Shown: positions 3,404-32,636 of the stretch, piece by piece
Layout of the letters: the number at the start of each line of letters is the position of its first letter
Numbering within the stretch: the stretch's first letter is position 1
Source of the DNA: an uncultured Bacilli bacterium
Lineage (GTDB): Bacteria; Bacillota_I; Bacilli_A; RF39; UBA660
Reading direction: 5' to 3'
DNA length: 32,636 bases
Assembly (NCBI GenBank): GCA_944359705.1
Contig: CALVSZ010000004.1
Location: 1-32,636 of the forward strand
The notes under the pieces: model-generated
The model's database searches: none
What the model was told of the DNA's origin: nothing
What the model saw: the letters and a program-made list of their open reading frames with translations, nothing else
Position numbers and translations under genes: made by a program

Positions 3404-4606
3404 ATGCAGATAATTAGTTTAACAGAAATTCAATTTAAAAATTATTCTAGAATTCATAGTCGTAGAAACTATTTTCAGTCAGTAGAATTTGCTAATTTTC
3501 AAAAAAACAGAGGATATCAAGTTTTATATATAGGACTACTTGACGATAGTGATAATGTAATTGCCGCATCATTAATTCTAGGAAAGACTATACTAGGAAA
3601 ATACTTATACGGATATGTTCCTGGAGGCTATTTGATTAACTATGACGATGTACAAACTTTTAAAAAGTTTAGTGAATTATTAAAAAAATATCTATATAAA
3701 CTTAATTATGTATATATAATCGTAAACTCTTTAATAACTATTAAAGAATATGATAAAAAGGGAAATATTATATCTAATCATAATAAATATATTGAATTAT
3801 TTGAAACATCTGAATATGTAAAAAGCAAACAAAAAGAATTAAACGTATGTGCAAAATTAAATTTAATAAAGAAAGATTCTGTATATAATAACTTTAGTAG
3901 ATTTGTAAAAAGGAATATAAAAGATGCTAAATTTAAAGGCATAAAAATTATAAAAGGGTCAGTTAATGATGTTGAAAAATTCTACTATTTTATTAAGAAA
4001 AAAGATAAACATAATATTAATTATTATAAAGGTTTGTTTAATAATTTAAATACGGAAAATAATAAATTTGAAATATATTTTGCATATATGGATACTAATG
4101 AATATTTAAAAAATTGTCATATAGCATTAAATAAAGAAAAAGCAAAGAACGAAAAATTAAGACAAAAACTATTAAAGAATAATAATGATAATAATATTGT
4201 ATATAAAATGCAATCAGATAAATTAATTGATAAATATGATAATGAATTATCTAAAGCAATACAGTTAAATACGCAATATAAAGATGGAACGATTGTAGCT
4301 ACTGTTGGTATTATAAAAACTAATAATACAATTAATTTTATTGTAGATGGTTATGATAGTAATTTAAAATTTATAAAATCATCTTATTTAATAAAATGGG
4401 AAATTATAAAAGAGTATTTAAAATTAGGATATACAAATTTTAATCTAGGATATTTACCTGATTATCAAGATAAATTTAAAGGGTTATATTTATCTAGAAT
4501 TGGGTTTAATTGTAATATATATATAGAACCCGGACAATACAATTTAATTGTAAATAATATGATATATAAATTTATAAGTATTGCTGACAAAGATAAATAT
4601 AATTAA
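3404..4606 (+). CDS. FemABX-family peptidoglycan bridge peptidyltransferase
   Basis: A 400-residue cytosolic enzyme of the FemA/FemX/MurM type, which adds amino acids from aminoacyl-tRNA to the lipid II stem peptide. Evidence is the two GNAT-like halves: an N-terminal one containing ILGKYLYGYVPGG near residue 70, and a C-terminal one with SYLIKWEIIKEYLKLG, then FNLGYLPDYQDK and GLYLSRIGFN close to the end. Between them a charged helical stretch (near ALNKEKAKNEKLRQK) matches the coiled-coil arm of FemA. I use the ATG at 3404, which follows GAGGAG by 7 bases, rather than a TTG at 3389. It is one of two + strand genes. Which residue is added to which bridge position cannot be told. Confidence 0.85.
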   Translation: MQIISLTEIQFKNYSRIHSRRNYFQSVEFANFQKNRGYQVLYIGLLDDSDNVIAASLILGKTILGKYLYGYVPGGYLINYDDVQTFKKFSELLKKYLYKLNYVYIIVNSLITIKEYDKKGNIISNHNKYIELFETSEYVKSKQKELNVCAKLNLIKKDSVYNNFSRFVKRNIKDAKFKGIKIIKGSVNDVEKFYYFIKKKDKHNINYYKGLFNNLNTENNKFEIYFAYMDTNEYLKNCHIALNKEKAKNEKLRQKLLKNNNDNNIVYKMQSDKLIDKYDNELSKAIQLNTQYKDGTIVATVGIIKTNNTINFIVDGYDSNLKFIKSSYLIKWEIIKEYLKLGYTNFNLGYLPDYQDKFKGLYLSRIGFNCNIYIEPGQYNLIVNNMIYKFISIADKDKYN

Positions 4607-4628
4607 AAAAGCACATAGTGCTTTTTTT
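4605..4628. terminator. Bidirectional terminator between converging genes
   Basis: AAAAAAGCAC, ATA, GTGCTTTTTT: a 10-bp stem with a 3-base loop and T runs on both strands. It ends the femX-like gene on the + strand and the rluB/pilin-like group on the minus strand. Confidence 0.88.
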
Positions 4629-5406
4629 AATTAATACCACAAGTACCCGAATATCCAGTACCTGTTGCATTATTTACTACATTAATAATAAAATTAACAA
4701 GAAGTGGCGAGAACATTATAATAACAGCGATTATTAGTCTTCTTATAAATGTTTTTGTTGCTTTTTTCATTTCATCTTCATTACCTGCGAATACTGCTCT
4801 TCCTATATCAAAACTGCCTAAAGCGATTAATGCAACGGGAACTAGTACTTTAACATAATTAAAGATTGTATTTATAAAATTAACTAACCTAGTTCCCAAA
4901 ATTCCTTCACACGTTGTGTATTCTTCCGGATCAAAAATAACCATATTACCAAGTCCATCTGAACAATTTTCGCATACAAATGTTATTTTTTTATTGAAAT
5001 ATGCTTTATGAATCACACTCCAGGGTAATTTAACATCATTATAATCCATATATAAGTCATAATTGTAAGTACCAAAAATAGGTACGAAAAGAACATCAAG
5101 ATGAAAAGAAGTAACGTAGCCTACTATACGATAAGGGCACTCGTTTTTACTGCTATTTTTATCTATTTTATCCTTAAAACTATTATAATCAAAATTAATC
5201 CATGGAGTATTTTGGTTAATACGAGAATCATCAGATGTACAAATATAATCTAATGTCTCTTTCTCATCATTATATGTAATAACTAATTCAACCATATTTC
5301 CATTGTCATTTAATACATACTTACATTCTATATCTTCTGCTTTAACTACACTAGGAATACACATAAATACAATAGAAAAAATCATAATTATAAATTTTTT
5401 ATTCAT
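4627..5406 (-). CDS. Secreted/anchored pilin-like protein, copy A (most diverged ectodomain)
   Basis: A 259-residue protein I cannot assign to a characterised family. It has a signal peptide (about 23 residues, ending IPSVVKA), an ectodomain of roughly 140 residues with CPY and a CENC pair, then CEGILG and a C-terminal module of two hydrophobic helices. Between the helices is a charged loop (GNEDEMKKATKTFIRR), and the tail ends TGTCGIN-like with a last cysteine. The helix-loop-helix layout recalls VirB2/TrbC-type T4SS pilins, but no other secretion gene is in the window, so this is an inference. The last 75 residues equal those of copies B and C, while the ectodomain is largely different. The ATG follows AAGGAGG that overlaps the stop of copy B. 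Last gene before the terminator. Confidence 0.75.
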   Translation of the reverse strand: MNKKFIIMIFSIVFMCIPSVVKAEDIECKYVLNDNGNMVELVITYNDEKETLDYICTSDDSRINQNTPWINFDYNSFKDKIDKNSSKNECPYRIVGYVTSFHLDVLFVPIFGTYNYDLYMDYNDVKLPWSVIHKAYFNKKITFVCENCSDGLGNMVIFDPEEYTTCEGILGTRLVNFINTIFNYVKVLVPVALIALGSFDIGRAVFAGNEDEMKKATKTFIRRLIIAVIIMFSPLLVNFIINVVNNATGTGYSGTCGIN

Positions 5407-5418
5407 AGATATTCCTCC

Positions 5419-6156
5419 TTAGTTAATACCACATGTTCCTGAATATCCAGTACCTGTTGCATTATTTACCACATTTATAATAAAATTAACAAGAAGTGGC
5501 GAGAACATTATAATAACAGCTATTATTAGTCTTCTTATAAATGTTTTAGTAGCCTTTTTCATTTCATCTTCATTACCTGCAAATACTGCTCTTCCTATAT
5601 CAAAACTGCCTAAAGCAATTAGTGCAACAGGAACTAGTACTTTAACATAATCAAAAATTGTATTTATAAAGCTTATTAATTCAGGCCCTAAAATGCCTTC
5701 ACAATCATCATATTCGCCAGGCTCAAATATAGGCATATCATCAACATCACAATTGGTACATCCAAAAGTAAAATTAGATGTTGCATCATCTTTAACTACA
5801 GCAATTGTATAAGGAAGAGAAACTGCTCCCATAGTTGATCCACCATAAATTATGCCTTTTAAGGTATATGGACACTTAGCAGATCCACTATTGTTTTTAA
5901 CTTTTTCCATAAATTCATCGTATGTCAAATCAAAAGATTTACCATAATCTATTTTTGTTCCTGAATAATCCATTTTATAAGAAAAACTATTTTCATCATA
6001 AACTACTTCTAAATTTACATAAATAGTTTCTTTAAGGAATAATATCCCTTGATCCTTATTTGCTGAATACTCACAAATAACTTCTTCTGCTTTAACTACA
6101 CTAGGAATACACATAAATATAATAGAAAAAATTATAATTACAAATTTTTTATTCAT
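5419..6156 (-). CDS. Secreted/anchored pilin-like protein, copy B
   Basis: 245 residues: a signal peptide nearly identical to that of copy A, a cysteine-containing ectodomain (VICEYS, CPYTL, CTNCDVDDM), then CEGILGPELISFINTIF and the shared two-helix C-terminus. The ectodomain resembles copy C in its framework (EEVICEYSANKD, NSGSAKCPYTL) but differs in the intervening stretches. Six cysteines occur at matching places in all three copies, which suggests structural disulfides outside the cell. The start follows TTAGGAGG, which overlaps the stop of copy C, so the three are surely cotranscribed. Function unknown; a surface fibre subunit or adhesin is possible. Confidence 0.75.
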   Translation of the reverse strand: MNKKFVIIIFSIIFMCIPSVVKAEEVICEYSANKDQGILFLKETIYVNLEVVYDENSFSYKMDYSGTKIDYGKSFDLTYDEFMEKVKNNSGSAKCPYTLKGIIYGGSTMGAVSLPYTIAVVKDDATSNFTFGCTNCDVDDMPIFEPGEYDDCEGILGPELISFINTIFDYVKVLVPVALIALGSFDIGRAVFAGNEDEMKKATKTFIRRLIIAVIIMFSPLLVNFIINVVNNATGTGYSGTCGIN

Positions 6157-6167
6157 AGATATTCCTC

Positions 6168-6887
6168 CTAATTAATACCACATGTTCCAGAATATCCAGT
6201 ACCTGTTGCGTTGTTTACTACATTAATAATAAAATTAACAAGAAGTGGTGAAAACATTATAATAACAGCGATTATTAGTCTTCTTATAAATGTTTTAGTA
6301 GCCTTTTTCATTTCATCTTCATTACCTGCAAATACTGCTCTTCCTATATCAAAACTGCCTAAAGCAATTAGTGCAACAGGAACTAGTACTTTAACATAAT
6401 CAAAAATTGTATTTATAAAGCTTATTAATTCAGGCCCCAAAATACCTTCACAATCATCATATTCACCAGGATTAAATATTGGCATATCATCAACATCACA
6501 ATTGGTACATCCAAATTCCAAATTATCTACTTTAGTTTTACCAACTACAATAACATATCCCCAAGAGCGACCATTTGATATTGCACCTGGTAAAGTATAT
6601 GGACATTTTGCACTTCCTGAATTTAAATTAACCAATTCCATAAAATCTTCATGAGTAAAATCAAATTTAGTATCATAATCTTTTTTTGTTCCTGTATAAC
6701 TAATTACACCTTCTAAATTGTTTTCATCGTAAATTACTTTTACATCTATATAAATAGTTTCTGGGTGCAGAAGATCTCCTATATCCTTATTTGCTGAATA
6801 CTCACAAATAACTTCTTCTGCTTTTACAATATTAGGTATTAGCATAAATACAGTTGTTAAAATTAATATTACATATTTTTTATTCAT
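6168..6887 (-). CDS. Secreted/anchored pilin-like protein, copy C (first of the three)
   Basis: 239 residues from the ATG at 6887. An ATG three codons upstream (6896) abuts the ribosome site AAAGGAAG and is less likely; the chosen start also gives MNKK, as in copies A and B. Signal peptide ending IPNIVKA, ectodomain with VICEYS, CPYTL and CTNCDVDDM, then the shared module CEGILGPELISF and the two-helix C-terminus. Its start is 17 bases past the rluB stop, so the trio is probably read from the rluB promoter. Its ribosome site is weaker than those of B and A, so B and A could be translated more strongly. Stop codon TAG. Confidence 0.75.
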   Translation of the reverse strand: MNKKYVILILTTVFMLIPNIVKAEEVICEYSANKDIGDLLHPETIYIDVKVIYDENNLEGVISYTGTKKDYDTKFDFTHEDFMELVNLNSGSAKCPYTLPGAISNGRSWGYVIVVGKTKVDNLEFGCTNCDVDDMPIFNPGEYDDCEGILGPELISFINTIFDYVKVLVPVALIALGSFDIGRAVFAGNEDEMKKATKTFIRRLIIAVIIMFSPLLVNFIINVVNNATGTGYSGTCGIN

Positions 6888-6903
6888 AAAGATCATCTTC
6901 CTT

Positions 6904-7626
6904 TTATTTTTTATTTACTAGGCTATATAATATTGCAACTTCTTTAAAAGTTAATTTACGATATTCTCCAACTTTCAAATCTTTTACATCAAATATAGCA
7001 TACTTTTCTCTTTTTAATTTTAATACTTTATGGCCAACTGCTTCAAACATATTTTTTACTTGATGATTCTTTCCTTCTGTTATAGTTATTTGTACAATAC
7101 TTTTATTAATTTTTTTATCAATACTTTTTACTTTCACTTTAGCAGGCCTTGTTTTATATCCGTCAATAACTACTCCTTTTTTTAATTTCATTATTGATGT
7201 AGGATTCATTACTCCTTCTATTTTAGCAATATAAGTTTTTTCTATATTTGAACTAGGATGCATTAATTTATTTGCTAAATTACCATCATTAGTAAGAAGC
7301 AATACTCCAGTAGTGTCATAATCCAGTCTTCCTACTGGATAAATTCTATTAGAACTAATTACTAAATCTAAAACTGTTTTTCTACCAAATTCATCGTTAG
7401 TAGTTGTCACTACTCCTCTTGGTTTATTTAGAAGATAATATTCATAATTTTTATTATTATCTAAAATATTTCCTTCAACAGAAATACTATCACTACTTTT
7501 TACTTTAGTACCTAATTCAGTTATAACTTGTCCATTTACTAATACTTTTCCTTCTTTAATTAATTCTTCTGCATGTCTTCTAGAACAATATCCTAAATTA
7601 GCAATAACCTTTTGCAGTCTTTCCAT
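6904..7626 (-). CDS. rluB: 23S rRNA pseudouridine synthase, RluB/RsuA family
   Basis: 240 residues. An N-terminal S4 RNA-binding domain (MERLQKVIANLGYCSRRHAEELI, with VLVNGQV) is followed by the pseudouridine synthase domain with the catalytic Asp in GRLDYDTTGVLLLTNDG near residue 105. It isomerises a uridine in 23S rRNA (U2605 in E. coli RluB; by family). The ATG follows AGAGGTG and an extended -10 promoter lies just upstream. Firmicute members usually neighbour scpAB or spore genes; here it heads a group with three pilin-like genes. RsuA and RluB cannot be cleanly separated by eye. Confidence 0.92.
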   Translation of the reverse strand: MERLQKVIANLGYCSRRHAEELIKEGKVLVNGQVITELGTKVKSSDSISVEGNILDNNKNYEYYLLNKPRGVVTTTNDEFGRKTVLDLVISSNRIYPVGRLDYDTTGVLLLTNDGNLANKLMHPSSNIEKTYIAKIEGVMNPTSIMKLKKGVVIDGYKTRPAKVKVKSIDKKINKSIVQITITEGKNHQVKNMFEAVGHKVLKLKREKYAIFDVKDLKVGEYRKLTFKEVAILYSLVNKK

Positions 7627-23443: not shown

Positions 23444-24591
23444 TTATATTATTTTTTTAATAATTTGTTTAAATTTTTTTATCACTCTTTTATGTAATGG
23501 CAAATTGTGTACATATTTCTTTACCAAATAATTAATTGGTTTTTCTTCTAAATCATTAAAAAAATCTTTTCTTTTTTTAGGATAGTTACCAGAATACAAT
23601 AGCGAAGGATTGTGGCATGTTATTTCTTCTAAATTACATTCTTTATATTTTATTTTATCACTTATTTTTTTTAATATTTCATTTCCTTTATTACTATTGA
23701 TAATAATTGCTGACACTCCCTTGTTATCGTACATTTCAGGATAAAAGTTTTTTATTCCCCAAAAATCTCCTAAAGTAATATCTGAATATTTATTCCCCAA
23801 TTTAAAATTACAATTGTAGCAACTCTCTCTTAATGCAATATCTGACAAAAATAATTTCATGTAATCATTCTTACGTGCTAAATTAGATATTTTTTTATTT
23901 TTAAATATTAGAGTATTAGAATATGTATCCCACCCTGTAATTTTATCTCTAAAATTATAATTAATTAATGTGTCGTTATATTTTTTTCCATTTCTTTTAT
24001 ATATTTTCCGAACAATTTAGGGCTAGGAACGCCATGGCAAAATAGATCTAAACATATAAGATTATCATTATTATATTTTAAAAAACTTTTTAACCCAGCA
24101 ACTTGACAAGGTGTTCCAACAAACAATATTTTCTTTGACTTTATATTAGATCTTATAAATTTAAAAATATCATTTAAATCACTTTCTAAATATTTGGAAC
24201 CTTTTAATTTATTTATATCACTTATGTTATTAATATACTTATGAATAAGTTTGTTTTGATTATTAAAACAAGCACCAATTACTATACCATTTTGATTAAT
24301 TACTTCTTCTGCTATTAATTCAAATATACTACCTGATGATGCATTATTCATTCTTGATATATCACTTTTGTTATAACCAACATAACACTTATTAATTGAA
24401 TAATTTTCTGTTGAATTTAATACAGGGCAATTTTTTTTGCACAAACCACAATTTACACATTTATCTTCATCTATAATTGGACGTTTAAATCCTTCTTCGT
24501 CTAAAACCATTGATATAGCATTTTTAGGACAAATATTATAACATGCTGTACATCCGCAGCAATTATTTTTATTTTCTAAAATATTTTTCAT
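23444..24591 (-). pseudogene. F420-hydrogenase-beta-like Fe-S protein of polysaccharide clusters, frameshifted
   Basis: Two frames make one gene. The first (from the ATG at 24591) has two 4Fe-4S motifs, CCGCTACYNICP and CVNCGLCKKNCPV, then VGTPCQVAGLKSFL and FCHGVPSP, and stops at 23965 (TAA). The second frame covers 23444-23860 and reads back without stop to about 23987 as YNDTLINYNFRDKITGWDTYS, ending with SCYNCNFKLGNKYSDITLGDFWG. The family has KYG..VNFRDK.TGW at that place. Adding one base to the T7 run at 23981-23987 (A7 on the coding strand) restores a single 382-residue protein. Such proteins (FrhB-like) accompany polysaccharide pyruvyl transferases, and one is next but one upstream here. 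The role may be reductive modification; it is not known. Either real decay, slippage control or an assembly error. Confidence 0.85.
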
Positions 24592-24593
24592 AT

Positions 24594-26117
24594 TTAACCT
24601 CTTAATAATTTTAATTTTTTTAATGTATTAATAACTAACTTTTTTTCATAATTATTCATTGAAAAGTTATATGCAATTATAGTATAAATAATTGTATATA
24701 AGAGTGCATATATAATTATATTAATAAAACTATTATAACCATACAAATTCATTACAATTAATATTATTATAATTGGAATAATTAAAGGTAGTATGAGTTT
24801 AACAATTTCTTTCCAAAATTTAAATATATTTATTTTAACTTTTTTATAATAATATATATTCATAATTATTATGTTTCCTAATATTAATGATATAGAAGTT
24901 CCTATTGCGCTTCCAATTCCATCATATAATTTTGCTAAAGGAATACTTACCACTATATTTAGAATTGCAATAAAAACTAATAATACTGCTCTAAATTTAT
25001 GCATATTTTTAGCTTGCATAATACTTAATCCCAAGTTTTGAATTAAAGGTATGGATAACGGAATAATTAAAATTAGTGCAATGTAATAAGCTTCTTCAAA
25101 ATTATTCCCAGCCCACCACATTATAAATTCTTTACCAAATAATACTAATCCACTAACCATCAAAAATATTACAAAGCATTGCATTCTACCTACTTTAATC
25201 ATTTCATTTGTAAGTTCATCAGGAGAGGCATTTTTGGCTACCATTTTACTCATTTTTGGCAATAAAACACTACTTATTGCCGTTGATAGATTTACAAATA
25301 ATTGATTAAGTTGACTTGCCACTGCATATACTGATACCGCAATTGTTCCAGATACAGCACCTAAAATAAATTGATCTAAACTCCAATTAATTTTATCTAC
25401 GATTACTCCTAAACAAATAAAGAATGAATAACTAAATATAGTTATAAATAATTTTTTATCAAATCCTTGGAATTTAATTTTAAGTTTAATTTTTTTCTTG
25501 CAATATATATAATTTGAAATTAATACAAAAATATTAGCACAAGTTATTACAATACACATTGTTATTGATCTATATCCTAAAAATAATAAAGGAATCATTA
25601 ATAAAGGCTTTAAAATAGTATTTAATATAGACATTATTTTTTGAAAAGTAAATTGTTCATATGCACTGATTATTGAAGAAAAAATGCTAAATGGGAAAGT
25701 TATGGCCAAATTAAAAGACAATATTAATAACATTATTTTCATCTTAATCAATTCAATGTTGGTCATAGTATCACCAAAAAGACTTGTTGATGAAAAAAAT
25801 AAAACTAATCCCAAACTTCCAGCAATTAAACCTATTATACAAAATATAGCAAAAAACATACCATGAAGTTTTTGTTCTTCTTTATATTTTTTTTGTTCCC
25901 GATATTTTGCAGTATATACTATTATAGCATTCCCAAATCCTAAATCTAAGACTGTTAAGTACCCTATTATTGAAGAAACTAGAGAATATAATCCATATTC
26001 ACTTTGACCTAACATTCTTATTAATAATGGTGTATATAATAATTGTACTATAGTACTTATTATTATAGATACATATGATAATATAGCCCCCCTTTTTCTT
26101 TCAATACTGTCATTCAT
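24594..26117 (-). CDS. Wzx-type polysaccharide flippase
   Basis: 507 residues with 12-14 hydrophobic helices, of the MATE-like polysaccharide transporter (MOP) superfamily. The N-terminus (RGAILSYVSIIISTIVQLLYTPLLIRMLGQ-like, then SEYGLYSLV) is typical of Wzx/RfbX proteins, as is the later SSVLLPKMSKMV. It would flip the undecaprenyl-linked repeat unit outward. The start has only a weak AGTGATT site and is 2 bases from the pyruvyl transferase stop. It lies between that gene and the Fe-S protein gene. Substrate specificity cannot be read from sequence. Confidence 0.9.
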   Translation of the reverse strand: MNDSIERKRGAILSYVSIIISTIVQLLYTPLLIRMLGQSEYGLYSLVSSIIGYLTVLDLGFGNAIIVYTAKYREQKKYKEEQKLHGMFFAIFCIIGLIAGSLGLVLFFSSTSLFGDTMTNIELIKMKIMLLILSFNLAITFPFSIFSSIISAYEQFTFQKIMSILNTILKPLLMIPLLFLGYRSITMCIVITCANIFVLISNYIYCKKKIKLKIKFQGFDKKLFITIFSYSFFICLGVIVDKINWSLDQFILGAVSGTIAVSVYAVASQLNQLFVNLSTAISSVLLPKMSKMVAKNASPDELTNEMIKVGRMQCFVIFLMVSGLVLFGKEFIMWWAGNNFEEAYYIALILIIPLSIPLIQNLGLSIMQAKNMHKFRAVLLVFIAILNIVVSIPLAKLYDGIGSAIGTSISLILGNIIIMNIYYYKKVKINIFKFWKEIVKLILPLIIPIIIILIVMNLYGYNSFINIIIYALLYTIIYTIIAYNFSMNNYEKKLVINTLKKLKLLRG

Positions 26118-26119
26118 TA

Positions 26120-27199
26120 CTAATCACTATCCTTAATATCTAATGCTTTTTCCAAAAATTCAAATGCCTTTTTCCTTTCTTGCTCTAATATTTTGAAAGC
26201 CTCTATATAATTACATTTCAAATCATTTTTAGTTATTTTTCCTTTATATTTTCTTTCTTCTAATTTAAATTTAGAAAGTAATGTGTCAATTCTAGAATTC
26301 ATACTTACATTATTATCTTCTCTATCATATACTAAAAAAGGTGTATTATATAAAATTGCAAATACGGAAGAATGAAAAGAGTCTGTACAAATTAGAAATG
26401 CGTTTTTTTCTAAAAATAAAAATTCACTAGGACCGCATTCAAAAAAAGGATCATTTTTATCCAAAAGATTTATAACATCACAATTATTTTCTTTTGCTAC
26501 TTTATTTATTATTTTTTTTCTTTCATCTGAAAGCGCCCCTAAAAAATAAGTTAATATATATTTATTAGATTTTAACATTCTTGGTCTTTTAGATACCTTA
26601 TCCCACTCTTCAGCTGTCAATAACATTGTAGGATCTACTAATACTTCTATATCTTTTCTTCCTGTTAATTCTTCTACTATTTCCTTACCACGTTCTTCTC
26701 TTACTGAAATATAATTTAATTTTTTTAATCCTTTTGTATATTCTGCATGTGTTTCATTTGGGACATTTTCAACTCCAAAACTTGCTGCAAATGCTATTTT
26801 TGTTTTATTAATCACAAAATCTAGGTATTTAAAGTTTCCAACTAAGCCAAAATTTGGGTTCCACACTTGATCACTCCCAACTATAAAATAATTGTATTTT
26901 TTTAATAAATTAATATTTTTTTGAAATGGGCAATAATATTTTCTGGTTACTTTTAATTTTTTTTCAAACTTTTTAAAATTATTATTTAAATAATTAGGAT
27001 TAGGAAAAACAAACCTAAAAATTTTTTTTATAATATTAATTAAATTCTTGGGTTTCTTCTTTTTAGAATTAGAATTCCTTATTATTTTTACATATAAGCC
27101 TAAATTAGTGCATATATATTGAATTGCATAAACTTGTAATTTATTTCCAAAGTTAAAATTAGAATATAAACTAAAAACACTTACTTTTTTTGTTTCCAT
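26120..27199 (-). CDS. Polysaccharide pyruvyl transferase family protein
   Basis: 359 residues of the WcaK/CsaB/PS_pyruv_trans family. The N-terminal SLYSNFNFGNKLQVYAIQ matches the family start (GNxGNxLQ), then VGSDQVWNP, and AASFGVENVP, and later ICTDSFHSSVFAILYNTPF with the substrate-side His. Such enzymes add ketal pyruvate from PEP to a sugar. The start follows AAGGTGAA and overlaps the upstream GT2 gene by 19 bases. The C-terminus (EERKYKGKITKNDL) is normal. Stop TAG. The recipient sugar is unknown. Confidence 0.9.
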   Translation of the reverse strand: METKKVSVFSLYSNFNFGNKLQVYAIQYICTNLGLYVKIIRNSNSKKKKPKNLINIIKKIFRFVFPNPNYLNNNFKKFEKKLKVTRKYYCPFQKNINLLKKYNYFIVGSDQVWNPNFGLVGNFKYLDFVINKTKIAFAASFGVENVPNETHAEYTKGLKKLNYISVREERGKEIVEELTGRKDIEVLVDPTMLLTAEEWDKVSKRPRMLKSNKYILTYFLGALSDERKKIINKVAKENNCDVINLLDKNDPFFECGPSEFLFLEKNAFLICTDSFHSSVFAILYNTPFLVYDREDNNVSMNSRIDTLLSKFKLEERKYKGKITKNDLKCNYIEAFKILEQERKKAFEFLEKALDIKDSD

Positions 27200-28206
27200 T
27201 TTTTCACCTTAATCTTTTTTAGTTTGAATATAATTAATAATAAATAGGGATGACATTTTTTTATAAAATATAATTGCAATTTTATATGAAATGATAAATT
27301 AAATTTATTTAAGTTTATTAAAACATCATTATCATTAATAATGGAACTAATATTTCTTACATATTCGACAAATTCTTTTCTATTTTTATTAATTGTGTAT
27401 ATTAAATTAACATAATTAAGAACGATAATAGAATGCGAACAATTCACATCATCTATTAAATTTTTTAAATTTTTTGACAATAGAATATCTCTTAATTTTA
27501 AATTTGCTTTTAATATATCATTAATATTTCTTTTATAATATATATGAGATTTTGTTACGCTAAATTCATTTTGATAATAATTATACGTAGGTATATCTAT
27601 TAACAAAATCTTATCAATTTCTAACAGCAATTTTATAAAAAAACATTCGTCTTCAAGCATTCCTATATCAGTATCAAAAACAATTTCATTAATTTTGGAT
27701 TTATTTATTAGTAACAAACAAACAAAATTGTTTTCAATTCCATTTATTAGTGATGGTATTAAACTATTTAAAATATCAGACTTATTGTATAAACCAGTCT
27801 TAATTTGATATTTTCTAAATATTCTACTGTTATCCATAGCAATGTAGTAAGTAGTCCTAACTACATCAACATTATTTTTTTCCAAGCTATTGACCATTGT
27901 TTCAATAGCATTTTCTTCTAACCAATCGTCAGAGTCGACAAACGTTATATATTTTCCATTTGATTTCTCTATTCCATAATTTCTACTATCAGATACTCCA
28001 GTATTTTTTTTATGATAAATTTTTATTCTTTTATCTTTATTAGCAACTTTATCATATGATTTTTTATATTCATTTTTAGAACCATCATTAATTAATAATA
28101 TTTCTATATTATTATAAGTTTGTTTTAATAGCGATGATACACATCTTTCTAAATATTCACTATTTTGATTATAAATTGGAACAATTATTGAAACCTTATT
28201 CTCCAT
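27181..28206 (-). CDS. Family 2 glycosyltransferase
   Basis: 341 residues. The N-terminal GT-A domain is clear: VSIIVPIYNQN, LLINDGSKN, KNTGVSDSRNYGIE and the DxD-type FVDSDDW. The C-terminal half is more variable and ends in a basic KLKKIKVKKWKQKK stretch that could associate with the membrane. It transfers a sugar from a nucleotide sugar to the growing lipid-linked unit. I start at the ATG at 28206 (AAAGGTGA before it); an in-frame GTG three codons earlier is less likely. It overlaps the GT4 gene by 11 bases. Confidence 0.92.
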   Translation of the reverse strand: MENKVSIIVPIYNQNSEYLERCVSSLLKQTYNNIEILLINDGSKNEYKKSYDKVANKDKRIKIYHKKNTGVSDSRNYGIEKSNGKYITFVDSDDWLEENAIETMVNSLEKNNVDVVRTTYYIAMDNSRIFRKYQIKTGLYNKSDILNSLIPSLINGIENNFVCLLLINKSKINEIVFDTDIGMLEDECFFIKLLLEIDKILLIDIPTYNYYQNEFSVTKSHIYYKRNINDILKANLKLRDILLSKNLKNLIDDVNCSHSIIVLNYVNLIYTINKNRKEFVEYVRNISSIINDNDVLINLNKFNLSFHIKLQLYFIKKCHPYLLLIIFKLKKIKVKKWKQKK

Positions 28207-29293
28207 CACATTCACCTTTATATATTTTTACTAATTTTGATATTACATTATCAATGTTATATTTACTATCTTCTAAAATTAACTTAGAATTTTTTCTTTT
28301 GTTATTTAAACTGATTGCTGTTTTTGCCCATTTTAAAGCTCCGTCTTTCAAAGATAAAAAATGTATATATTCTGTAAGTTGTATCTCCTTAGATACATTA
28401 TTACTTACTAATATTGGAACACCATTAGCTTGAACTTCAACTAAAGTTAGAGGCAAACCTTCATATAATGATGGAAATATAAAAACATCAAATGCATTTA
28501 AAATCTTATTAACATCTCTACGATTCCCCAAAAAAATTACTTTGTTTTCTAAATTCTTTTTTACTGTGATTTTCTTTATTTCATCTTGCAAATCGCCACT
28601 ACCAACTAAAATTAACTTAGAATCTTGCCTAATAGTTAAAATTTTTTCAAAAATTTCTAACAAGAAAGTATGATTTTTGGGATAATCAAATCTACCGATA
28701 TGACCAATAACAAATTCATCTTTATTTAATTTAAGTTTCTCTCTATATATTTTTCTAACTTTATTATCGTAATAAAATTCTTTAACATTTATTCCGTTTT
28801 CAATAATTTCAAAACATTTATTACCAAATAAAGATTTACCAGCTTCAGTACTACATGCAATTCTTTTAGTTGATAAATTATTTATTAATATTCTAGAAAT
28901 GTTCCATTTTATTCTTTTAAAAACATTATCTTTTTTTAACCCATAAGTAGTATGAGAATGAACAATTCTTATTTTTACCTTCGCCATTTTAGCCGCTATC
29001 ATAACATAAGCAGAATTAAAATAAGTATGACAATGAACAACATCTATTTTTTCTTCTTTTATTACTTTATATATTTCATTTATATGCTTAAATAAATTAA
29101 CTTTATTAGGATTAGAAATTTTTATAATCTTATAATTCATCTTCAATAGTTCGTCTTCATAATCAAATTTATAGTTATTATAAGTTAGAAATATGAATTG
29201 GACATCTTTTTCTTTTATATTTCGGCATATATTCATTAAAAAATTTTCTATTCCCCCAATATCCATTTTATAATTAACTTGTAAAACTCGCAT
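28196..29293 (-). CDS. Family 4 glycosyltransferase (GT-B)
   Basis: 365 residues. The N-terminal half has GGIENFLMNICRNI and the VVHCHTYFNSAYV patch; the C-terminal half has FVIGHIGRFDYPKNHTFLLE and the nucleotide-sugar motif FPSLYEGLPLTLVEVQANG with the E-x7-E pair. This matches capsule/exopolysaccharide GT4 enzymes such as EpsF. It adds a sugar to the lipid-linked intermediate in the cytosol. The start follows TAGGTT, 8 bases past the polymerase stop. It overlaps the GT2 gene. Confidence 0.92.
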   Translation of the reverse strand: MRVLQVNYKMDIGGIENFLMNICRNIKEKDVQFIFLTYNNYKFDYEDELLKMNYKIIKISNPNKVNLFKHINEIYKVIKEEKIDVVHCHTYFNSAYVMIAAKMAKVKIRIVHSHTTYGLKKDNVFKRIKWNISRILINNLSTKRIACSTEAGKSLFGNKCFEIIENGINVKEFYYDNKVRKIYREKLKLNKDEFVIGHIGRFDYPKNHTFLLEIFEKILTIRQDSKLILVGSGDLQDEIKKITVKKNLENKVIFLGNRRDVNKILNAFDVFIFPSLYEGLPLTLVEVQANGVPILVSNNVSKEIQLTEYIHFLSLKDGALKWAKTAISLNNKRKNSKLILEDSKYNIDNVISKLVKIYKGECDGE

Positions 29294-29301
29294 CTTTTAA
29301 C

Positions 29302-30462
29302 CTACTTTCTAAAAATTGTTATAATATTTTTGAAAATGCCATAATTAAACAAAGTACCAAAATCTTGATTTTTAAACAACATATACATATACACAAAATA
29401 TATTAAAGTTAAAATAATAATTCCAAATATAATTAATAATCTTAATTTTGTAAATTTTTTAAAAGCATCTATCATTGGCACAATTCCAATAAATTGCAAA
29501 AGCATAATAAACCTTATCATTACTATAGATTGTGGTAATACGCTTAATATACAAGTCGATAATAAAATTATAAAGCCATTAATATTATCTATTTTATTTC
29601 GTTCTTTTTGAATTAATAAACAAACTATTATAACTATTAATTTAGTAATTTCTATAAGGAGTGGTGTGCCTCCATAAAAATTATACATATAATTATTTTG
29701 AAAATATGCGTTGTATAATTGTTCTATTTTTTGAAAAAATTGTATATTTACTAGTGAATTTATTAAAGTTAATAAAAATGATGGCGCTATGCAAATTAAA
29801 ATCGAAATAATAATACTTTTTAAATTTAGTTTATTTTTAAATATTTTATATATTATTAATATTATTGTAGGAAATATCATTGAATTATGAAACAATAGTG
29901 CAATAAAATATAGTAAATAGCATATCTTTTTATTATATTTTTTAATGTAATCCAAGTAAAGTGATAATGAAAATAATATAATTGCAATATAATTCCAAAG
30001 TCCACTTATAAAATTTAATGCATTAAATCCAAAAAAAGTAAATAAAGTAATAATTATAAAAGGAAATATATTAATACTTGTATTTTTTCTATAATCATGA
30101 ATAATATAAAATATTATAGTATAACCAATTGCAGTTATAAAAAATTGCAAAATATCTACATTTTTTGTGAAAGAAATAATATAACTAATTAATAATGGCA
30201 AAAATTCACGATCAATTAATTTTAATGAAGAAATAAAATATGTTAAGTCTTTACCAATATAATTTTCTACTATTAAATGATGCCTATATAAATCATAATC
30301 CTGAGGAGGAATAAAATAATATGCAATAATACCTAAAGCTATACCTAATAATAAAGAATATAGCACACTATTTTTTTTGGCATCAAATAAGTAAAAAAAC
30401 AGTACAAACGCAACCCCAACTATTGGTAAAAGGGAAAATATTCCCAATGTAATTATTACCAT
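29302..30462 (-). CDS. EpsG/Wzy-like polysaccharide polymerase
   Basis: 386 residues with about ten hydrophobic helices. A large extracellular stretch near YYFIPPQDYDLYRHHLIVEN and the segment ALLFHNSMIFPTIILIIYK match the EpsG family of O-antigen/capsule polymerases. It would link flipped repeat units outside the membrane. The start has GGAGTGAT before it. It is between the acyltransferase and the GT4 gene. Polymerases vary so much that only context plus the FHNSM pattern support it. Stop TAG. Confidence 0.82.
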   Translation of the reverse strand: MVIITLGIFSLLPIVGVAFVLFFYLFDAKKNSVLYSLLLGIALGIIAYYFIPPQDYDLYRHHLIVENYIGKDLTYFISSLKLIDREFLPLLISYIISFTKNVDILQFFITAIGYTIIFYIIHDYRKNTSINIFPFIIITLFTFFGFNALNFISGLWNYIAIILFSLSLYLDYIKKYNKKICYLLYFIALLFHNSMIFPTIILIIYKIFKNKLNLKSIIISILICIAPSFLLTLINSLVNIQFFQKIEQLYNAYFQNNYMYNFYGGTPLLIEITKLIVIIVCLLIQKERNKIDNINGFIILLSTCILSVLPQSIVMIRFIMLLQFIGIVPMIDAFKKFTKLRLLIIFGIIILTLIYFVYMYMLFKNQDFGTLFNYGIFKNIITIFRK

Positions 30463-30477
30463 AATATCACTCCAATT

Positions 30478-31530
30478 TTATATAAATTTATTATTTATTT
30501 TACTAACAATAACAGAATTTAGTTTTATTTTTTGATATATACATTTCATAATTTTGTCAATCAACGTACAACAAATATATATAATTAATAGTACCACTAT
30601 CATGTATATATATCCATACTTAAAATAAAATTTTGAAGTATTTAACATTTCATTCCATAATAAATTCCTAACAAATGGATTTTCATGAATAATATAAACT
30701 GCAAACGTTGATGACGAAAAAAACATAATTATTTTTTTTATTTTATCATTTACTTTAAAATCTGTATTTAACACTATCAAAAATAACAAAACGGAAGATA
30801 TATATGCAAATGGAAGATTATATTTCAATATATACATAAGTTTAGAAACACCACCAATTTTAAAAACAATAATTGAAATAATAATATATAAAACATTAAT
30901 AGCAATATATCCATATACAAAACAATTCTTCTTAAAGTTTATTTTATTAATTCTTATATAGCTACCCATTAAATATAAATTTAAAAACCAATATAAATAA
31001 TTAGCAGAATTCAAACTTACTGAATTATTAATTCCAATAGGTAATATGGAATTTATAATAAACAATATAATTAACAATAATTTAAATTTTTCTTTTGAAA
31101 TATTATTTATTAAAACATTCAAGAATGGAAATAACAAAATTAATAATATATATGCATTAAAAAACCAATATCTCTGAGTTATAAAAGGGAAAAATATGTA
31201 TATTAAATTTTTAATATTTAGTTCTATTTTATTTGTCAATAATAATATAAAACCAATAATTAATGAATAAACAAATATTTCTCCATATAGTTTTATTATT
31301 TTATTAATATCAAATTTACTTTTACATAAAAAATAACCACTTATTAAAATAAAAATATTTACTGCTACAATACACAAAACTTCTACCGAAATTGTTGAAA
31401 CACATAATAAATTTATTTTTTTAGGCATTTCATTTAATATATTGCCATGATAAAAAAAATGTAATATTAATATCATAATCATTGATACTATTCTTAATAT
31501 TTCTATGTTAACATTTTTTTCTTTTTTCAT
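30478..31530 (-). CDS. Acyltransferase 3 family membrane protein
   Basis: 350 residues with about ten hydrophobic helices. The N-terminus NVNIEILRIVSMIMILILHFFYH carries the family's R (in LRI) and H (in LHF), which bind the acyl donor side; TQRYWFFNAYILLILLFPF is another family patch. It would add an acetyl or similar group to a surface glycan. The start follows TTGGTGAA, shortly after the TagF-like gene. The acyl group and acceptor are unknown. Confidence 0.9.
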   Translation of the reverse strand: MKKEKNVNIEILRIVSMIMILILHFFYHGNILNEMPKKINLLCVSTISVEVLCIVAVNIFILISGYFLCKSKFDINKIIKLYGEIFVYSLIIGFILLLTNKIELNIKNLIYIFFPFITQRYWFFNAYILLILLFPFLNVLINNISKEKFKLLLIILFIINSILPIGINNSVSLNSANYLYWFLNLYLMGSYIRINKINFKKNCFVYGYIAINVLYIIISIIVFKIGGVSKLMYILKYNLPFAYISSVLLFLIVLNTDFKVNDKIKKIIMFFSSSTFAVYIIHENPFVRNLLWNEMLNTSKFYFKYGYIYMIVVLLIIYICCTLIDKIMKCIYQKIKLNSVIVSKINNKFI

Positions 31531-31545
31531 TTTTTCACCAACATT

Positions 31546-32636
31546 CTAATTGTTTTTCCTTGTTAGTTTTTCATAAATACGTTTACAATTATTATTATCT
31601 CTTAATTCAAAAAAAGAATTTGACCTTTGTATATATTTATTTTCTACTTTATAATTATTTTCTTTATATTGTATTATATTTTTAACTAAATTTTTTTCAT
31701 CTAAAACGACAGGTCCAAATCCATCATTCTCGTACGAAAAATAACCTTTTTCAAGATGACTTTTTCTAAACCTTTCTATGTCAAACTGATAATATATTAT
31801 AGGTTTTTGCATAAAAGCTCCATCTATTGAAATACTAGAATAATCTGTTATCAAAATTGAAGACTCGCTAATCAAACTTAAAATCATGTCCATATTTGAT
31901 TTTACAATTATAATATTACTACATTTTGTAGTAAATAATGGGGCGAATTTCTCTACATTCTTATGTAAATAAAAGAATAATTTTATGTTATTATCTTTTA
32001 AAAATTTTATCAATATTTCATTATTTAGTAAAGATTGATATTTTTTATAATATTCACTGCTTTTAAACTGTCCAATGTTTTTTATATCCTTTAACCAAGT
32101 CCTCCATGTTGGCATAATTGCTATAATGTTTTTATTTGGTACAGCATTATAAAGTCTATCAAATCTTGGGAAACCCAAATAGCAAACATTATTTAAAGGA
32201 TAGCCAAAATTAGATTTTATATATTCGTATTCTGGTTTAGCACCACATATAAACAATTCAAAATTTGTTTCTTTATATGTTAAATATTTAACATAGTTCA
32301 TAGTCACTCCATGTTGTAAAAAAACTCTATGGCCATTAAACAGCCTATAATAATGCAGTACATAAAATATTTTTTCATTGGGATTTGCTGCTTTATGTAT
32401 CGTTATATTTTTATTAGCATTTAAATAATAAATCCAATGCTTCAAGCCACCATAATTAATTACGTTTCCTAATTTGTTAACTTTTTCATATGATTCACAT
32501 TTTTTATTTATTGCATAATAAACATAATCTTCTGGATGATTTTTTCTTACGTATTCAAAAAAAACATAACCATTATCCCTCGCATCATTCTTTCCTTCAG
32601 AAATTAACCATATTTTTCTTTTTTTTATTTTTAAGT
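31546..32636 (-). CDS. CDP-glycerol glycerophosphotransferase family (TagF-like), cut by right edge
   Basis: The frame runs unbroken from the TAG stop at 31546 to the right edge, so the N-terminus is outside. The visible part (363 residues) has KIWLISEGKNDARDNGYVFFEYVR near its start, the LQHGVTM patch, MPTWRTW and LITDYSSISIDGAFMQKPI, all hallmarks of Glyphos_transf (PF04464). Such enzymes move glycerol phosphate or ribitol phosphate from CDP-alditol. A TTG at 32445 could look like a start but it lies within the family domain. In a glycan cluster it may add one phospho-alditol side group rather than build teichoic acid. Confidence 0.9.
   Translation of the reverse strand, partial: LKIKKRKIWLISEGKNDARDNGYVFFEYVRKNHPEDYVYYAINKKCESYEKVNKLGNVINYGGLKHWIYYLNANKNITIHKAANPNEKIFYVLHYYRLFNGHRVFLQHGVTMNYVKYLTYKETNFELFICGAKPEYEYIKSNFGYPLNNVCYLGFPRFDRLYNAVPNKNIIAIMPTWRTWLKDIKNIGQFKSSEYYKKYQSLLNNEILIKFLKDNNIKLFFYLHKNVEKFAPLFTTKCSNIIIVKSNMDMILSLISESSILITDYSSISIDGAFMQKPIIYYQFDIERFRKSHLEKGYFSYENDGFGPVVLDEKNLVKNIIQYKENNYKVENKYIQRSNSFFELRDNNNCKRIYEKLTRKNN

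Follow-up and report, generated by a model that had tools for sequence, protein, structure and literature searches.

Three tandem genes in the window, a stretch of 32,636 nucleotides that makes up the whole of contig C4 in a draft genome of 1.23 Mb and 92% completeness, encode secreted proteins in which a variable N-terminal ectodomain (head) is joined to an identical C-terminal hairpin of the type IV secretion system (T4SS) pilin family. We propose, with a probability of roughly 0.6, that the three proteins, VirB2-like and of the T4SS_pilin kind, serve a chromosomal and vertically kept T4SS as minor or tip pilins. We take the host to belong to the GTDB family UBA660 of the order RF39. Database entries of its relatives are labelled uncultured Bacilli, Tenericutes, Mollicutes or Candidatus Faecisoma, the last being placed in Mycoplasmatota by NCBI.

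The genes (A, B and C) are intact and follow one another in the same orientation (minus strand), with an rluB-type gene on one side and a terminator-like hairpin on the other. Behind its signal peptide, each product has a head (about 140-160 residues) and then a 76-residue C-terminus with two hydrophobic helices. Gene A (4627..5406, 259 aa; assigned from the ORF list, a PF18895 search and head comparison) comprises a signal peptide of residues 1-23 (5338..5406, predicted cleavage between VKA and E), the ectodomain (4858..5337) and the invariant pilin hairpin with its C-terminal Cys (4630..4857). The corresponding parts of gene B (5419..6156, 245 aa) are at 6088..6156, 5650..6087 and 5422..5649, and those of gene C (6168..6887, 239 aa) at 6819..6887, 6399..6818 and 6171..6398; both genes were assigned from the ORF list and the PF18895 search. 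The length of C assumes a start at the ATG at 6887; its longest ORF begins at 6896. Signal peptides were assigned from cleavage sites predicted from the sequence, ectodomains by sequence comparison, and hairpins by PF18895 matching together with alignment and, for B, an AF2 model. The three tandem secreted paralogues described in the first-pass annotation are thus borne out by the ORFs and their Sec-type signal peptides. Each gene has its own ribosome-binding site, which is AGGAGG for A (5407..5419, minus strand) and the same sequence for B (6157-6168, minus strand). The rluB-type gene (6904..7626, minus strand), a pseudouridine synthase gene by sequence type only, lies 16 bp upstream of C and is probably co-transcribed with the trio. 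At the other end, the terminator-like hairpin AAAAAAGCACATAGTGCTTTTTTT (4605..4628, read by eye) separates A from a convergent femX-like gene. Elsewhere in the window, the ORFs at 23444-32445 look like a polysaccharide or capsule-type cluster (flippase, glycosyltransferases, acyltransferase).

The last 76 residues are identical in A, B and C (Y184-N259 of A), one residue more than the 75 reported previously, and hydropathy indicates two membrane helices. A resemblance to T4SS pilins had been suggested for this segment, and an HMM search agreed, matching PF18895 (T4SS_pilin) with E-values of 7.5e-7 (A), 7.1e-6 (B) and 3.1e-6 (C). Because of this match, the pattern in the trio is not attributed to chance. 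The scores of A (29.6 bits) and C (27.6 bits) pass the curated cut-off of 26.6, and B (26.5 bits) falls 0.1 bit short; when the whole genome was searched with PF18895, all three exceeded the cut-off. The VirB2/TrbC family PF04956 gave no match to the trio at E-values up to 1, and a search with 38 plain pilins, which lack a head, listed 25 families without it. The AF2 model of B, built with five homologs, has helices at residues 158-193 and 196-234 (pLDDT about 57-76) and a head without a confident fold (pLDDT below 50); that of the plain pilin is a two-helix hairpin with a mean pLDDT of 83. A Foldseek search of the PDB with the plain-pilin model returned nothing better than E 2.0 and no solved VirB2 or TraA pilin, as is unsurprising for a bare hairpin. 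Sequence searches of the PDB with profiles of the plain pilin and of the ParA-like protein described below (u320) gave no relevant match, and no Pfam match was found outside the hairpin in ten other headed pilins.

Nearly all pilins have a Cys before and a Cys after the hairpin (96 of 97 headed, 116 of 117 plain). A disulfide between the Cys before helix 1 and the Cys after helix 2 probably closes the hairpin. An even number of cysteines is present in 63 of the 97 headed pilins (p 0.004, for sequences that are not independent), which may hint at full disulfide pairing. Both termini of the hairpin would lie outside the membrane, since signal peptides occur at one end and, in relatives, cell-wall enzymes at the other.

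The heads of the trio are far less alike. B and C share 63% identity in this part, A and B 35%, and A and C 29%, so that A is the most diverged copy, as had been noted. Alignment also confirmed six cysteines in fixed places (28, 90, 145, 148, 166 and 256 in A), and A has two more, at 16 (in the signal peptide) and 56. Over the last 76 codons, pairs of genes differ at 9-14 synonymous and 0 non-synonymous sites (dS 0.18-0.31, dN 0), whereas the heads have dS of 0.40-1.11 and dN of 0.30-0.68 (dN/dS about 0.6-0.75). Silent-site divergence is 0.16-0.26 in the hairpins versus 0.33-0.54 in the heads (p 0.04 and 0.003), about half. In three other lineages with tandem headed pilins (loci L203, L049 and L055), hairpins are 99-100% identical and heads 31-43% identical, against a between-locus baseline of 36 ± 9% for hairpins and 27 ± 5% for heads. 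Silent-site divergence in these lineages is 0.04-0.11 in hairpins versus 0.45-0.59 in heads (Fisher 2e-5 to 7e-13), which is 4-15 times lower. The signal peptides of A and B are nearly identical in DNA, silent sites included, while their heads differ, which gives A the look of a mosaic. Judged from these substitution patterns, the hairpins are common to the copies through recombination, given their low silent-site divergence, and in the trio are also held by purifying selection, given the absence of amino-acid change despite 9-14 silent changes. The first-pass annotation had credited selection on the protein; that part stands, with recombination contributing as well. The overall pattern indicates replacement of heads combined with recombination.

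No secretion genes were seen among the ORFs of the window, in line with the earlier statement that none are present; that statement does not extend to the genome, which has them on contigs C27 and C26. C27 encodes, in one direction, a plain pilin (108 residues), a virB6-like protein (814-aa ORF), a prgI-like protein (110 residues), a VirB4 split into 204 and 594 aa (TraG P-loop match, 9.6e-15), a glucosaminidase/C39-type cell-wall enzyme and a 295-aa protein. VirD4 is encoded on C26 in ordinary chromosomal surroundings (PF02534, 1.2e-55; NCBIfam conju_CD1115, 7.1e-91). The genome contains both the VirB4 ATPase and the VirD4 coupling protein expected of a monoderm conjugation-type T4SS. The virB6-like assignment is based on position, topology and weak NCBIfam matches in relatives, and the prgI-like one on position and topology, with a sole match (TcpE, 3.4e-4) in one relative. 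C45 carries a TadA/VirB11-like ATPase, whose top NCBIfam matches are VirB11 and TadA with similar scores, together with two proteins named tadB and tadC by position and a ParA-like protein recognized by its P-loop motif. The 260- and 300-aa neighbors of the ATPase had no convincing Pfam match. A search of the genome, at its 92% completeness, for the relaxase family PF03432 found no member of that family.

The system recurs throughout the family. The 594-aa part of VirB4 is encoded by 251 of the 291 genomes sampled in the family, which cover 142 of 150 genera. Most have a single copy with roughly 63-80% identity; the copies seen in the remainder of the class show 35% identity or less. VirD4 is present in 128 of 144 genera, usually as one close copy. 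In a bounded sample of the phylum searched at E 1e-6, the plain-pilin profile matched 18 of 392 genomes, all within this family, a sample that does not prove absence elsewhere. The operon order in relatives is TadA/VirB11-like ATPase, plain pilin, headed pilin, virB6, prgI, virB4, the TadA/VirB11-like cluster lying directly upstream of the pilins in many of them. A pilin gene is next upstream of virB6 at 90 of 97 surveyed VirB4 loci (median gap 18 bp), so that virB4, virB6 and prgI neighbors are seen for the pilins of the genus and of family relatives; the trio itself is away from the C27 operon. Among these 90 virB6-adjacent pilins, at least 100 residues precede the hairpin in 57, 60-100 in 13 and under 60 in 20; heads are thus common but not obligatory.

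Several further features of these loci were observed. The split of VirB4 into about 200 and 594 aa is found throughout the family (L038 3731-6126 and relatives), like the TrsD plus VirB4 of pGO1-type and Patescibacteria systems. In many genera, the TadA/VirB11-like ATPase, two further proteins and the ParA-like protein u320 are encoded upstream of the pilins (L039 11488-15235, L250 81-5160). A gene of about 370-390 aa without the hairpin stands between the plain and the next pilin at L046 6662-7801, and also at L056, L071, L102, L103, L124 and L136. Near one T4SS operon, two tandem secreted-looking proteins appear TasA/camelysin-like by eye (L038 12354-13476).

A variable-headed protein on a fixed module, as first proposed for the trio, is also what the family shows, with 1-4 headed copies per locus and varied heads at the compared loci where a single constant copy would have counted against display. 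By blastp, 75 heads fell into 49 groups, and heads of different loci mostly had no detectable similarity. Headed and plain pilins formed two clades (support 99/98) in a tree built from 40 hairpins, and the trio lay within the headed clade, beside same-genus virB6-adjacent headed pilins that carry the trio's six cysteines. An initial contig scan with pilin B had found no relatives, probably because the heads are private to the genus and the hairpins too diverged for a pattern scan. In this genome, the headed-pilin slot just upstream of virB6 is empty. The link of the trio to rluB holds as an adjacency and is lineage-specific, as no pilin was found within 1.5 kb of rluB in five same-genus genomes. 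Since the slot is empty here and the trio stands at rluB where relatives have no pilin, the simplest reading, with the draft assembly as a caveat, is that a headed pilin was relocated to rluB and triplicated. A headed-clade pilin of only 135 aa that still adjoins virB6 (L045 416-823, genome G052) is a probable head loss.

The hairpin also occurs in proteins of a different build. Some proteins of relatives begin with it and continue through a linker into a CHAP, YkuD, D-Ala-D-Ala carboxypeptidase (S11) or GDSL domain. N-terminal hairpin fusions, several with cell-wall-type enzymes, are located at L233 3255-8936, L234 4840-8330, L235 4348-5466, L236 10227-12347, L237 2959-4982, L239 3584-4582 and L241 4127-5446. 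They are often tandem, with the hairpin conserved and the remainder divergent; at L234, hairpins are 97% identical and passengers 31%. Hairpin proteins with a C-terminal domain bearing SGNH/GDSL-like motifs by eye were also seen in the same genus and in relatives (L064 263-1333, L051 18011-18997, L244 4641-5768).

In the mechanism that we propose, Sec exports each trio protein, in keeping with its signal peptide, and the shared hairpin would sit in the membrane with both ends outside, probably disulfide-closed. The hairpin may then be taken up by the VirB6/PrgI/VirB4 platform along with the plain pilin, or remain beside it, and the head would be exposed at the tip or the surface to serve in attachment, a role which by analogy would be that of VirB5 or LPxTG adhesins elsewhere. 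Heads appear to be replaced, while purifying selection maintains the hairpin and recombination spreads it among copies. In this genome, the operon lacks the headed pilin expected there, and three versions with different heads stand at rluB instead. A broader proposal, which we advance only tentatively and at somewhat below even odds, is that these gut-type Bacilli, as an entire family of at least 142 genera, possess a core chromosomal T4SS that builds a conjugative-type pilus with dedicated headed pilins. The disulfide-closed hairpin would then be a universal chassis on which N-terminal contact heads and C-terminal cell-wall enzymes can be swapped, with recombination at the conserved hairpin as the source of variation.

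The headed proteins could instead be membrane-anchored surface adhesins or receptors that borrow the hairpin as an anchor, outside the T4SS structure. Heads of 100-590 aa would seem too large for every subunit of a packed pilus, the trio and other arrays of hairpin proteins lie away from the T4SS operon, and fusions of the hairpin to C-terminal enzymes exist. A generic anchor, however, should not require the hairpin to be near-invariant, to have a charged loop and to be flanked by paired cysteines, and in most genera a headed pilin is encoded directly upstream of virB6 inside the operon; we consider this explanation unlikely. The joining of the hairpin to varied peptidoglycan-type enzymes (CHAP, YkuD, S11, GDSL), the tandem arrays with divergent passengers and the core status of the VirD4 coupling protein would all suit a system in which the trio are T4SS substrates. 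In that case the hairpin would direct export or insertion, and the delivered effector would be the head or C-terminal domain. We judge this explanation improbable, because the trio has signal peptides, its cysteine-rich heads have no Pfam domains, the place in the operon is that of a structural subunit, and the C-terminal enzymes could equally be local tools of cell-wall remodelling.

Tandem duplication with functionless variety, under relaxed selection on the heads, would account for the array and for a head dN/dS of about 0.6-0.75, but hardly for three intact ORFs with their own ribosome-binding sites, six retained cysteines, a tail dN of 0 despite 9-14 silent changes and the same pattern in three other lineages, and we think it very improbable. 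As a two-helix membrane hairpin, the shared C-terminus also resembles a holin or other phage-derived protein, a match that the first-pass annotation had named as damaging to the display idea. The trio had no PHROG match below E 0.05 and no relatives in phage and plasmid collections; a phage origin was rejected on the PHROG and phage-collection results, and the PF18895 match and the T4SS operon context leave the holin reading with almost no weight.

Headed pilins share with the conjugative pilins VirB2, TrbC and TraA the two-helix hairpin and gene positions near VirB3, VirB4 and VirB6; those classical pilins have no ectodomain, whereas the trio has heads and no PF04956 match. TrbC and VirB2 pilins are cyclised through a peptide bond, whereas here a Cys pair flanks the hairpin and would close it. 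In the R64 PilV shufflon and PilE antigenic variation, the exposed part of a pilin is exchanged by recombination while another part stays fixed, the same plan as in headed pilins, but these are type IV pili and not T4SS. Gram-positive T4SSs are said to lack VirB2 pilins, with Patescibacteria excepted (PMC12857230, PMC12102498). The Patescibacteria have arrays of 2-11 VirB2-like pilins, found, as here, with profiles including PF18895, in tandem, near PrgI, VirB6 and VirB4 and with a separate VirB4-N-like protein (TrsD), in small genomes with a monoderm-type T4SS and no relaxase in most clusters (PMC12102498). Those arrays average 25% identity with a maximum of 54%, whereas the hairpin is identical here; the passages on them do not mention an identical hairpin bearing large, variable ectodomains at its N-terminus (PMC12102498), and the host here is a family of Bacilli. 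Contrary to the stated Gram-positive rule, a large Bacilli family has VirB2-like pilins within a near-universal chromosomal T4SS, and to these pilins are fused ectodomains that vary on a constant pilin part. A literature search, its scope excluding most subscription papers and all bioRxiv preprints, found no description of such a system in these Bacilli. If the heads are contact domains, they would make it possible to test how gut bacteria with reduced genomes, known chiefly from metagenomes, recognize their partners; they would also be a natural case of exchangeable display on a T4SS pilin.

The role proposed for the head also resembles that of VirB5 in the R388 model, as a contact domain nucleating on the VirB6 platform (PMC12857230), but VirB5 is a separate protein, whereas the contact domain here would be fused to the pilin. 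Tandem variable VirB2 paralogs with a proposed role in surface variation occur in Bartonella and Anaplasma; there, the variation is inside the short pilin itself and the hosts are Gram-negative (cited in PMC12102498). The virB6-like and VirB4-N proteins found here weakly match the NCBIfam families Mbov_0396 and Mbov_0397 of the Mycoplasma ICE T4SS, which is ICE-borne, whereas the present locus is a core chromosomal one with VirB2-type pilins.
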